64,000 nucleotides of DNA from Brachybacterium sp. P6-10-X1. GTDB taxonomy: Bacteria > Actinomycetota > Actinomycetes > Actinomycetales > Dermabacteraceae. Shown piece after piece: positions 57,354-60,314 of the stretch (positions are counted from its first letter, which is position 1; every line of letters begins with the position of its first letter). Below the pieces are notes generated by a model that made no database searches, was not told the origin of the DNA, and was given only the letters and a program-made list of their open reading frames with translations. The position numbers and the translations under genes were made by a program. The DNA lies in NCBI RefSeq assembly GCF_001969445.1, contig NZ_CP017297.1:4216001-4280000 (forward strand), given 5' to 3'.

Positions 57354-57902
57354 GTGAGCACATCGTTCGAGCGCGTCTCTCGCTTCAGCGTCGGATACGA
57401 CATGCGCGAGGTCGACGACTTCCTCGCGCGCGCCCGCACCTCCTATGAGGGGCGCGACCCCGAATTCTCCGGGGCGGACATCACGTCGGCCAGCTTCGGG
57501 ACCGAGCGCGGGGGCTATGACATGCGGGTGGTCGACGAGGCGCTGGACCGCCTCTCCGACGCCTTCGCCCTGCAGGCCCGGGACGACGCCATCGCGTCGA
57601 CGGGCGAGGATGTCTGGGTCGCCCAGCTCACCGAGCGCGCCGAGAGCCTCAAGGAGCGCCTCGAGCGTCCCGCCGGGGACCGATTCGCCCCGGCCTCGCA
57701 GGGAGAGCCGTCCTACGACAAGGCCGACGTCGACGCGCTGTGCGATCAGCTGGTCGCCTACTTCACGGACGGGCTGCCGATGAGCGTCGACGATGTGCGG
57801 CGCTCCGCCTTCCGGCGCCGTCGCGGGGCCGAGGGCTACCGCGAGGCCGTGGTCGACGTCTACCTGGACCACGTCGCGGACGTGATGGCCTCCGTGCCGT
57901 GA
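57354..57902 (+). CDS. DivI1A-repeat (DivIVA-like) protein
   Basis: 182 aa. At least three copies of the short DivIVA N-terminal motif: GYDMREVDDFLARAR, GYDMRVVDEALDRL and SYDKADVDALCDQL, with a fourth, degenerate one at GYREAVVDVYLDHV. No long coiled coil follows, unlike true DivIVA/Wag31. Probably a membrane-curvature or cell-pole associated protein, but its role is unknown. GTG chosen from the ribosome site. It occupies the place before rip where many actinobacteria carry dxr. Confidence 0.75.
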   Translation: MSTSFERVSRFSVGYDMREVDDFLARARTSYEGRDPEFSGADITSASFGTERGGYDMRVVDEALDRLSDAFALQARDDAIASTGEDVWVAQLTERAESLKERLERPAGDRFAPASQGEPSYDKADVDALCDQLVAYFTDGLPMSVDDVRRSAFRRRRGAEGYREAVVDVYLDHVADVMASVP

Positions 57903-57939
57903 TCGACGCCGACGCCGTCGTCGGCGACGGGTCGGCGCG

Positions 57940-59289
57940 ATGAGCGCGGCCCTGTTCGTCCTCGGCGTCCTGGTCGTGGCCGCGGGCCTGGCGGTCTCGA
58001 TCGCCCTGCACGAGATCGGGCACCTGGTCCCGGCGAAGCTCTTCGGCGTCCGGGTCACCCAGTACATGATCGGCTTCGGACCGACGGTCTGGTCCCGCAC
58101 GCGGGGGGAGACCGAGTACGGCGTCAAGGCCTTCCCCCTCGGCGGCTACATCCGCATGATCGGCATGTTCCCGCCGCACCGGGGCGAGCCCGAGGGCACC
58201 ATCCGTGAGGATTCCACCGGTCTGCTCCAGCAGATGACCGAGATGTCCGAGGACGCCAAGGCCTACGAGTCCTCGCAGTACGGTGCCGAGGACGCGCATC
58301 GCACCTTCGTGGCGCTGTCGGTGCCCAAGAAGCTCGTCGTGATGCTCGGCGGCCCGACGATGAACCTGCTGATCTCCCTGGTGCTGATGACGGTGATGGT
58401 CAGCGGCATCGGGATGCCGGCGGTGACCCCGACGGTGCAGGCGGTCTCCGAGTGCGTGCTGCCGGCCGGGGCTCCCGCCGACGCGAGCTGCGAGGGGGAG
58501 CGGCCCCCCCCCGCGCTCGCCGCCGGGATCCGGCCGGGGGACACCCTGCGGTCCATCGACGGCCACGAGATCAGCACCTGGTCCGATGTGACCACCGCGA
58601 TCCGTGCCAGCGGCGACCGCACCGTTCCCGTCGTCGTCGAGCGCGACGGCGAGACGCTGCGGCTTCAGGCGACCCCGATCGTCGACGCCCGTCCGGTGCT
58701 CGACGAGGACGGGGCCGTCGTCCGCGATGCCGAGGGCGACCTGGTCACCGAGCAGGTCGGCTTCCTCGGGGTCTCGGGCACGCCCGACCTGGTGCCCCGG
58801 TCCCCGGCCGTCGTGCCGGAGCTGGCCTGGACCACCTTCTCGCGGACCGGCGAGCTGGTCCTCACCCTGCCCGTGCGGCTGTACGAGGTCGGCCAGGCCG
58901 CGTTCGGCAGCGCCGAGCGCGACCCGAACGGTCCGCTCGGCGTGGTCGGCGTCTCGCGCCTGGCCGGGGAGGTCGCCGCCGCCGATCAGCCCGGATTCGA
59001 GCTGCGCGAGAAGGTCGGCACCATGATCTCGATGCTGGCCTCGCTGAACATGGCGCTGTTCGTGTTCAACCTGGTGCCGCTGCTGCCCCTGGACGGCGGC
59101 CATGTGGCCGGAGCGCTGGTCGAGGGGGTGCGACGGTTCCTGGCCCGTCTGCGCGGGAGAGCGGATCCGGGTCCGGTGGACATGTCGCGCCTGCTGCCGC
59201 TGACCAATGCGGTCGCGATCGTCTTCGTGCTGATGACGGTGCTGCTGCTGTACGCCGACATCGTCGAACCCATCACGCTGTTCCCCTGA
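57940..59289 (+). CDS. Site-2 zinc metalloprotease (RseP/Rip1 family)
   Basis: 449 aa M50 intramembrane protease. Zinc-binding HEIGH (His24-Glu25-His28) in the first TM helix, a PDZ domain around AAGIRPGDTLRSIDGHEIS, LGGPTMNLLIS, and the third zinc ligand in LVPLLPLDGGHV (Asp385). Cleaves membrane-bound anti-sigma factors in relatives. Only 37 bp from the previous gene; the neighbouring dxr and ispG of other actinobacteria are absent. Confidence 0.94.
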   Translation: MSAALFVLGVLVVAAGLAVSIALHEIGHLVPAKLFGVRVTQYMIGFGPTVWSRTRGETEYGVKAFPLGGYIRMIGMFPPHRGEPEGTIREDSTGLLQQMTEMSEDAKAYESSQYGAEDAHRTFVALSVPKKLVVMLGGPTMNLLISLVLMTVMVSGIGMPAVTPTVQAVSECVLPAGAPADASCEGERPPPALAAGIRPGDTLRSIDGHEISTWSDVTTAIRASGDRTVPVVVERDGETLRLQATPIVDARPVLDEDGAVVRDAEGDLVTEQVGFLGVSGTPDLVPRSPAVVPELAWTTFSRTGELVLTLPVRLYEVGQAAFGSAERDPNGPLGVVGVSRLAGEVAAADQPGFELREKVGTMISMLASLNMALFVFNLVPLLPLDGGHVAGALVEGVRRFLARLRGRADPGPVDMSRLLPLTNAVAIVFVLMTVLLLYADIVEPITLFP

Positions 59290-59327
59290 CCTCCGCCGGC
59301 ATGAGCACATCGCCAGGACGAGACGGC

Positions 59328-59333
59328 CATAAT
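59328..59333 (+). promoter_or_regulatory. -10 element of the ispG-like remnant, leaderless spacing
   Basis: CATAAT (five of six consensus bases), GGGGAC (6 nt), then GTG 59340. Confidence 0.5.
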
Positions 59334-59339
59334 GGGGAC

Positions 59340-59465
59340 GTGACTTCCGTGAGCCCGGGCATCCCCGCCGCGCCGACGGCGCTGCCGGCGGCCCCGTGCC
59401 CCGCGGCCGACCCGGAGGGCGAGGTGGTCGTCTCTCACGGTGCCGTCTCGGTCTCGGCAGGCTGA
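59340..59465 (+). pseudogene. Putative internal-deletion remnant of ispG (41 codons)
   Basis: A 41-codon ORF between rip and the GNAT gene, exactly where ispG (4-hydroxy-3-methylbut-2-enyl diphosphate synthase) lies in many actinobacteria. The N-terminus VTSVSPGIPAAP resembles IspG N-termini of the type MTSVSLGMPAAP; the C-terminus, GEVVVSHGAVSVSAG, resembles the IspG tail ending in GxPxVSVAG. All of the catalytic barrel and the cluster Cys are missing. The promoter and reading frame are intact, so it could still be expressed. The match is from memory of the family, so it is a hypothesis; alternatively it is an unrelated small protein. Confidence 0.5.
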
Positions 59466-59471
59466 GGGGCG

Positions 59472-60314
59472 ATGTTCCGGCGCGGTGGCCGGGTCCGGCC
59501 GGTCCGCCCCAGCGGTCTCGATGCCGCGCTCGCGCTCGCCCTGCAGGACCCGGTGGCCAATGCTCTCGCGGGCGCTCGGCTGCGGGAGGTGGGGCACCAT
59601 CCCGCCGTCTCCCAGGAGTTCTCCTCCATCGGCGACGAGAAGGAGCCCAGCGGTCTGCTGTGGCACGGCGTGAACGTCTCGCCGCTCTCGGCGACCGAGG
59701 AGGCGCTGGACGAATTCGGCCGCCACGTGGCCGCTCGCTCCCGCCGGGCCAGCTCGGTGGTGGGCCGACGCCGCGCGGTCGAGACCCTGTGGGAACCGCT
59801 GGCCGACGTCTGGGGCCCGGCCGTGCGCGAGTACCGCTGGAGCCAGCCGCTGCTGGTGGCCGGCGAGGCCGGGAGCCTCGGGGCGTCCCGGCTGCGCCCC
59901 GCGCTGCCCGGGGAGGAGGGCGCGGTCTTCCCGGCCGCGGTCGCGATGTTCCGGGAGGAGGTCGGGATCGATCCCCTGCTGGGCGACGGCGGGCGCTCCT
60001 ATCGAACTCGGATCAAGGAGCTGATCCGCCTCGGCCGCACCTATGTCGTCATCGAGGACGGCCAAGTGCTCTTCAAGGCCGACGTCGGTTCCCTGTTCGG
60101 CCCTGTCGCCCAGATCCACGGCGTGTGGGTGCGTCCTGACCACCGCGGCCACGGCCTGGGCCGGACCGCCATGGCGGACCTGGTGCGGCAGGTGCGCCGC
60201 GATCACGCGCCGCAGGTCTCCCTCTACGTCAACGACTTCAACGAGCCGGCCCGGCGGGCCTACGCCGCCTCCGGATTCCACCAGGTCGGGGAGCTGTCCA
60301 CGATCCTGTTCTGA
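59472..60314 (+). CDS. GNAT-family N-acetyltransferase with DUF4081-like N-terminal domain
   Basis: 280 aa. The N-terminal half (about 1-135) is the DUF4081-type domain found in this family (SSIGDEKEPSGLLWHGVNVSPL); the C-terminal half is a GNAT fold with acetyl-CoA loop RPDHRGHGLG and closing LYVNDFNEPARRAYAASGF. Syntenic with the acetyltransferase near proS in other actinobacteria; substrate unknown. Starts 6 bp after the remnant ORF. Confidence 0.85.
   Translation: MFRRGGRVRPVRPSGLDAALALALQDPVANALAGARLREVGHHPAVSQEFSSIGDEKEPSGLLWHGVNVSPLSATEEALDEFGRHVAARSRRASSVVGRRRAVETLWEPLADVWGPAVREYRWSQPLLVAGEAGSLGASRLRPALPGEEGAVFPAAVAMFREEVGIDPLLGDGGRSYRTRIKELIRLGRTYVVIEDGQVLFKADVGSLFGPVAQIHGVWVRPDHRGHGLGRTAMADLVRQVRRDHAPQVSLYVNDFNEPARRAYAASGFHQVGELSTILF

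Follow-up and report, generated by a model that had tools for sequence, protein, structure and literature searches.

Short in-frame ORFs at the sites of lost dxr and ispG genes in Brachybacterium, probably retained as ribosome bridges

What is left behind when dxr and ispG disappear from a gene cluster, and why should anything be left at all? The question is raised by a 64,000-nucleotide stretch of the Brachybacterium sp. P6-10-X1 genome (the window; family Dermabacteraceae). A sequence-only reading of the window had given the usual order as DivIVA-like gene, dxr, rip, ispG and GNAT gene, and this order was seen in the MEP-carrying relatives. The reading had also described a gap of 37 bp between the DivI1A gene and rip and a 41-codon ORF in the ispG slot behind an intact leaderless-type promoter. 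This layout held up: 37 nt (57903-57939) separate the DivI1A stop from the rip start, and the ORF begins with GTG, lies between rip and the GNAT gene, and ends 6 nt before the GNAT start. The CATAAT box is kept ahead of the GTG, consistent with a leaderless-type promoter. The genome (G000 below) is a single contig of 4.39 Mb and is 100% complete; relatives are labelled G003-G046 and so on, and the same-genus set consists of 38 Brachybacterium genomes. The features are collected in Table 1.

Table 1. Features around the dxr and ispG slots of Brachybacterium sp. P6-10-X1, in window positions
Feature	Position	Strand	Remark
DivIVA-domain (DivI1A) gene	57354..57902	+	TIGR03543, E 7.7e-59
In-frame ORF of 14 codons in the dxr slot	57899..57943	+	position and junctions are the sole basis for assignment to dxr
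rip (M50/RseP-type metalloprotease), 3' neighbour of the dxr slot	57940..59289	+	PF02163, E 5.7e-39
-10-like box CATAAT, kept from the ispG promoter	59328..59333	+	
41-codon ispG scar with a leaderless-type GTG start and a TGA stop	59340..59465	+	
Scar portion derived from the 5' end of ispG (codons 1 to about 21)	59340..59402	+	first 11 codons clear, exact junction uncertain
Scar portion derived from the 3' end of ispG (roughly the final 20 codons)	59403..59462	+	
DUF4081/GNAT acetyltransferase gene	59472..60314	+	PF13312, E 2.1e-20; PF00583, E 3.3e-12

The sequence-only reading had proposed that the MEP pathway is lost and that isoprenoids come from the mevalonate route or from relocated genes. 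Whole-genome family searches of G000 returned no intact ispG and no match for ispH, dxr or ispF, and relocated copies of these genes were rejected on this basis. Only partial, sub-threshold matches to dxs were obtained, with the N-terminal half absent among the matches listed; ispD was looked at by one locus comparison with G017. Many MEP genomes also score under the cut-off of the dxs model. Among the matches listed, the N-terminal half of dxs was matched in 26/26 Brachybacterium genomes with ispG and in 4/5 other genomes of the family with ispG (not G040), and in 0/12 MEP-less Brachybacterium and 0/4 Dermabacter genomes. The G000 contig carries a complete mevalonate set at about 2.643-2.650 Mb (L155 4452-10865), a run of six genes for mevalonate kinase, diphosphomevalonate decarboxylase, phosphomevalonate kinase, IDI-2, HMG-CoA reductase and HMG-CoA synthase. 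The HMG-CoA reductase falls below the NCBIfam cut-off and above that of Pfam (285.6 vs 27 bits). That the MEP pathway is actually present, and was missed through an assembly error or relocation, is barely credible: four MEP families are missing genome-wide from a complete single contig on which the mevalonate run is complete. G015 and G023, which are separate genomes, carry the same junctions plus substitutions of their own, and the scar is therefore not an assembly error.

We compared the ends of the 41-codon ORF with ispG from 25 of the 26 Brachybacterium genomes that carry the gene (G022 was dropped because of a broken reading frame). Over its first 33 nt the ORF reaches 85% identity to the closest of the 25 genes (0/2000 codon shuffles as high). 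Identity to ispG is 65% over the last 60 nt (0/2000) and 75% over the last 24 nt (7/2000). Judged by this similarity the ORF is two ispG ends fused in frame, about 21 first and 20 last codons, in agreement with the suggestion that joined IspG termini had resulted from an in-frame internal deletion. The 41-codon junction is shared by G015 and G023, and no relative was found in which this small ORF accompanies an intact ispG. Similarity at both ends beyond chance, together with an in-frame join, was found in G000, G015, G023 and G027. G027 has a separate scar whose breakpoints differ; of its 43 codons, about 36 come from the beginning of the gene and about 7 from its end. Such similarity was not found in G003, G009 and G010, save for weak matches (G009 start, 86/2000 shuffles as high; G010 end, 8/2000; the others in these three genomes weaker still).

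The surroundings of the ispG start are well conserved among MEP relatives. The start is GTG in 25/25, the box 5 nt before it reads ATAATG in 21, ATGATG in 3 and ATAATA in 1 (n = 25), and the gene stops shortly ahead of the GNAT start. The scars carry ATAATG 5 nt ahead of the start codon, as most MEP relatives do, and those of G000, G015 and G023 retain box, spacing, start and both ispG ends. The ORFs of G003, G009 and G010 (35, 37 and 24 codons, respectively) are no longer clearly ispG; box, spacing and start codon (now ATG in all three) are kept, and the stop lies 5-7 nt before the GNAT gene. In all seven MEP-less Brachybacterium genomes that retain the ispG box, the distance from box to start codon is unchanged, and the ORF comprises 24-43 codons and stops 5-7 nt short of the GNAT gene. 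With the box at this distance, a leaderless mRNA is predicted. Calculated from base composition with events assumed independent, the chance that G003, G009 and G010 would all show a start codon at this spacing is 4.6e-6.

A second short ORF, which the sequence-only reading did not mention, was found here in the dxr slot. The last two bases of its GTG fall within the DivI1A stop TGA (57900-57902), a GTGA overlap, and its own stop overlaps the rip start as ATGA, such that the 37-nt gap is the interior of this ORF. In MEP genomes dxr starts at a GTG overlapping the DivI1A stop in 22/22 cases where the script located dxr (22 of 26 genomes; the motif was not found in G037, G030, G013 and G034). The dxr stop overlaps the rip start in 8/22 and otherwise lies a few bases upstream, as counted by eye. 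The place and junctions of the G000 ORF match those of dxr in these relatives. All 12 MEP-less Brachybacterium genomes have an in-frame ORF that opens with the same GTG and closes on or at the rip start, spanning 11-33 codons: 14 in G000, G015 and G023, 23 in G027, 33 in G003, 15 in G010, 17 in G009, 11 in G035, 27 in G029, G025 and G016, and 19 in G031. The stop in G027 lies 2 nt ahead of the ATG taken as the rip start. The G027 stub is still dxr by sequence (start 0/1000, end 15/1000 shuffles as good). A recognisable dxr scar in G000 was considered and rejected (start 403/1000, end 289/1000), and by the shuffle test the stub was not clearly recognisable as dxr in 10 of the other 11 MEP-less genomes either, the nearest being G035 (end, 27/1000) and G031 (start, 53/1000). 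Frame and junctions thus appear to outlast sequence, and the old gene is often unrecognisable.

Across the genus, ispG is present in 26/38 genomes and absent from 12/38. HMG-CoA reductase was found in 12/12 of the ispG-less genomes and in 4/26 of those with ispG. G017 and G021 have all six mevalonate genes plus MEP and hence both pathways; G024 has ispG plus HMG-CoA reductase, the reductase alone having been looked at. G012 was rejected as a dual-pathway species: its HMG-CoA reductase is unrelated to that of G000, the other proteins of the G000 run were unmatched within 18 kb, and its ispG is intact. Brachybacterium is known to include MEP, mevalonate and dual species, and B. halotolerans and B. 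kimchii are among those with the mevalonate route alone (Qabar et al. 2026, PMC13001223); our data agree with that study in finding a MEP/mevalonate mix within the genus. It is drawn on here for gene presence, and the words scar and synteny are missing from its main text; relative to that text, the number of losses, the junctions and the stubs are new.

A tree built from seven proteins of the locus itself in 45 genomes needs six MEP losses in the family, six being forced by starred branches. The MEP pathway has been lost at least six times in the family, five of them in Brachybacterium. The loss groups are A (G000, G015, G023), B (G027), C (G010), D (G009, G031, G035, G029, G025, G016) and E (G003), plus Dermabacter. 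Loss is the likely direction of change because other genera of the family hold dxr and ispG in these slots. A single shared loss for all 12 MEP-less Brachybacterium genomes was rejected (P = 7e-48). The pairs A+B, A+C and C+D, and G003 with D, C or A, were tested as joined groups, the groups having been named after the tree was seen. The first three were rejected (A+B, P = 1.4e-5; A+C, P = 1.7e-6; C+D, P = 2.3e-4), and rejection was weaker for G003 joined with D (P = 0.013), C (P = 0.042) or A (P = 0.014), which makes the separate placing of G003 less firm. The tree gives no firm order at the fork above G009.

How might such stubs arise and persist? The mevalonate operon would have made the MEP pathway dispensable, and in-frame deletions would then have removed the ispG interior and dxr. 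Deletions inside coupled operons would have lasted where ribosomes could still reach the next gene. In the dxr slot, a ribosome finishing DivI1A would restart at the overlapping GTG, translate 14 codons and stop on the rip start. In the ispG slot, a leaderless mRNA would open with the old ispG start codon, and the ribosome would end 6 nt before the GNAT gene. Selection would retain the frame and the junctions and leave the intervening peptide largely free to change. We consider it likely that both stubs are deletion leftovers kept in this manner as ribosome bridges to rip and GNAT, and they probably persist since both genes depend on ribosomes that have just finished the upstream ORF. Support for such bridging comes, among other observations, from the start codon and spacing that persist in G003, G009 and G010 despite the erased gene, and from the ispF slot of clade A, which also holds an in-frame remnant, described below.

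Alternatively, the stubs could be passive scars, random remnants of a pathway swap whose frames are open by chance. An open frame is readily obtained in GC-rich DNA, where stop codons are rare, and shuffled stub interiors remain open 63-100% of the time; a frame that also fits is expected in one case of three, against 5/5 independent lineages in frame at dxr and 5/5 at ispG. We calculated the chance with 1/3 for frame and dinucleotide shuffles for stops, assuming independent events and working with small numbers. On this model, the probability that all five representatives are open and in frame is 2.6e-3 for dxr and 2.2e-3 for ispG, and the joint probability is 5.6e-6, or 1.9e-7 if three further clade D lengths count as events. 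The DivI1A stop and the rip start already dictate part of the GTGA and ATGA letters, and unbridged slots do exist, namely the ispG slot of five of the 12 MEP-less genomes (G016, G025, G029, G031 and G035, with neither box nor mini-ORF) and the ispF slot of five. Passive scars leave the survival of start codon and spacing where the gene is otherwise erased to coincidence, and we regard them as an unlikely explanation of the stubs.

The 41-residue product might itself have a function. When the 41-codon ORF is compared among G000, G015 and G023, 10 sites vary at first codon positions, 13 at second and 17 at third. Its first 11 codons differ at third positions only (6/6 sites, P = 4e-4, for a segment picked after looking), which hints that the start of the ORF is translated, and codons 23-28 are identical. 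A functional micropeptide would draw on these two segments, but its middle is free, with up to 9/11 residues changed in codons 12-22. The product matches no Pfam or NCBIfam family, the other independent lineages carry unrelated peptides in the ispG slot, and no residue constraint was detected in the dxr-slot ORF. A role for the peptide itself is thus very improbable. The pattern of variation fits retention as a ribosome bridge, in which the frame would count more than the peptide.

Dependence of rip on upstream translation was assessed from its own start region. Anti-Shine-Dalgarno pairing as strong as that of the strongest tenth of random positions is lacking at 9/12 rip starts. The other three (G003, G010 and G031) reach or exceed that level in their Shine-Dalgarno-like energies, and the need for coupling is therefore not uniform.

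Other slots gave a mixed picture. Nothing recognisable as ispH was found within about 1.5 kb of xseA in 12/12 MEP-less genomes; the gene lies near xseA in 6/6 MEP genomes, pointing away from it in G028. An EIIB-like gene and ilvA flank the ispF slot, which was read in 11/12 MEP-less Brachybacterium genomes (G029 has no close ilvA). In G023 the slot holds an in-frame stub of 9 codons, which opens with an ATG overlapping the EIIB stop, closes with a TGA overlapping the ilvA start and resembles the ispF end. The 9-codon frame is kept in G000 and G015, headed by CTG with no usual start, and GAGGAG is retained ahead of ilvA in all three genomes. An open frame leads from the EIIB stop straight into ilvA in G027, G010 and G003. 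The slot has no bridge in G025, G016, G035, G031 and G009. In Dermabacter, a GTG overlapping the rip stop lies in frame with the GNAT gene in G042, G045 and G046 and not in G044. Three mevalonate-only genomes outside the family (G058, G118 and G095) showed no comparable bridge by eye; the rip gene of G095 seems to have its own Shine-Dalgarno sequence, and in its relative G064 dxr overlaps rip. A universal bridge rule was rejected, both on the mixed ispF slot and on the 5/12 genomes that have lost box and mini-ORF at ispG. Several arrangements exist at loss sites, and the mini-ORF is one among them.

By their anatomy, the stubs would work like known coupled small ORFs. Mycobacteria possess small ORFs, leaderless or coupled through RTGA, that keep their architecture while the peptide sequence changes (Shell et al. 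2015, PMC4633059). The Brachybacterium stubs resemble them in being short ORFs that start where the (putative) mRNA starts or stop on the start codon of the following gene, and the ispG stub has the size (5-50 codons) and the position, with its stop at the following start or just ahead of it, of a leaderless coupled small ORF. The two stubs depart from the mycobacterial pattern in different ways: the ispG stub has no RTGA and stops 6 nt short of the GNAT start, and the dxr stub carries RTGA at each end without being leaderless. For mycobacteria there are measurements of leaderless starts and of translation, whereas for the Brachybacterium stubs these are predicted from sequence; an origin of the mycobacterial ORFs from deleted genes is not given in the sections of that paper considered here. 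A short upstream ORF may serve merely to deliver ribosomes to the next gene (review 2025, PMC12548453), as the stubs would do, and gene loss as a source of coupling ORFs is not mentioned in the parts of the review that concern us.

In engineered knockout collections, in-frame scars keep the start and last codons so that downstream genes stay expressed. Those scars are a man-made design, whereas the Brachybacterium stubs are natural deletions. What is new here is the visible origin of the stubs from gene loss, repeated in independent lineages; such scars were not found in the literature searched on the genus, pathway replacement, remnants and coupling. Some of the coupled small ORFs described in actinobacteria may have begun as stubs of this kind, and the stubs offer a testable origin for these ORFs. 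It is possible, although on balance we doubt it, that gene loss in tightly coupled operons is generally frame-constrained and leaves bridge ORFs as a general source of unannotated actinobacterial small ORFs. If that were true, past gene losses could be read from the leaderless and coupled small ORFs of actinobacteria. The genus, which also contains dual-pathway species, provides a replicated natural experiment on the swapping of an essential pathway and indicates what a deletion seems obliged to preserve within a coupled operon. Annotators could mistake such stubs for small-protein genes.

The mevalonate run of G000 sits among sugar genes (neighbourhood about 2.639-2.656 Mb, L155:289-17461), presumably for rhamnose use. 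The same neighbours lie beside the mevalonate run in G015, G023 and G010 and were not seen near it in G027, G009, G017, G021 and others. The HMG-CoA reductase tree conflicts with the tree of the locus. These patchy neighbours and the conflict between the two trees suggest that the mevalonate run was transferred within the genus. The dual-pathway genome G017 has a short tandem repeat of GTCTCTGAG between rip and ispG.
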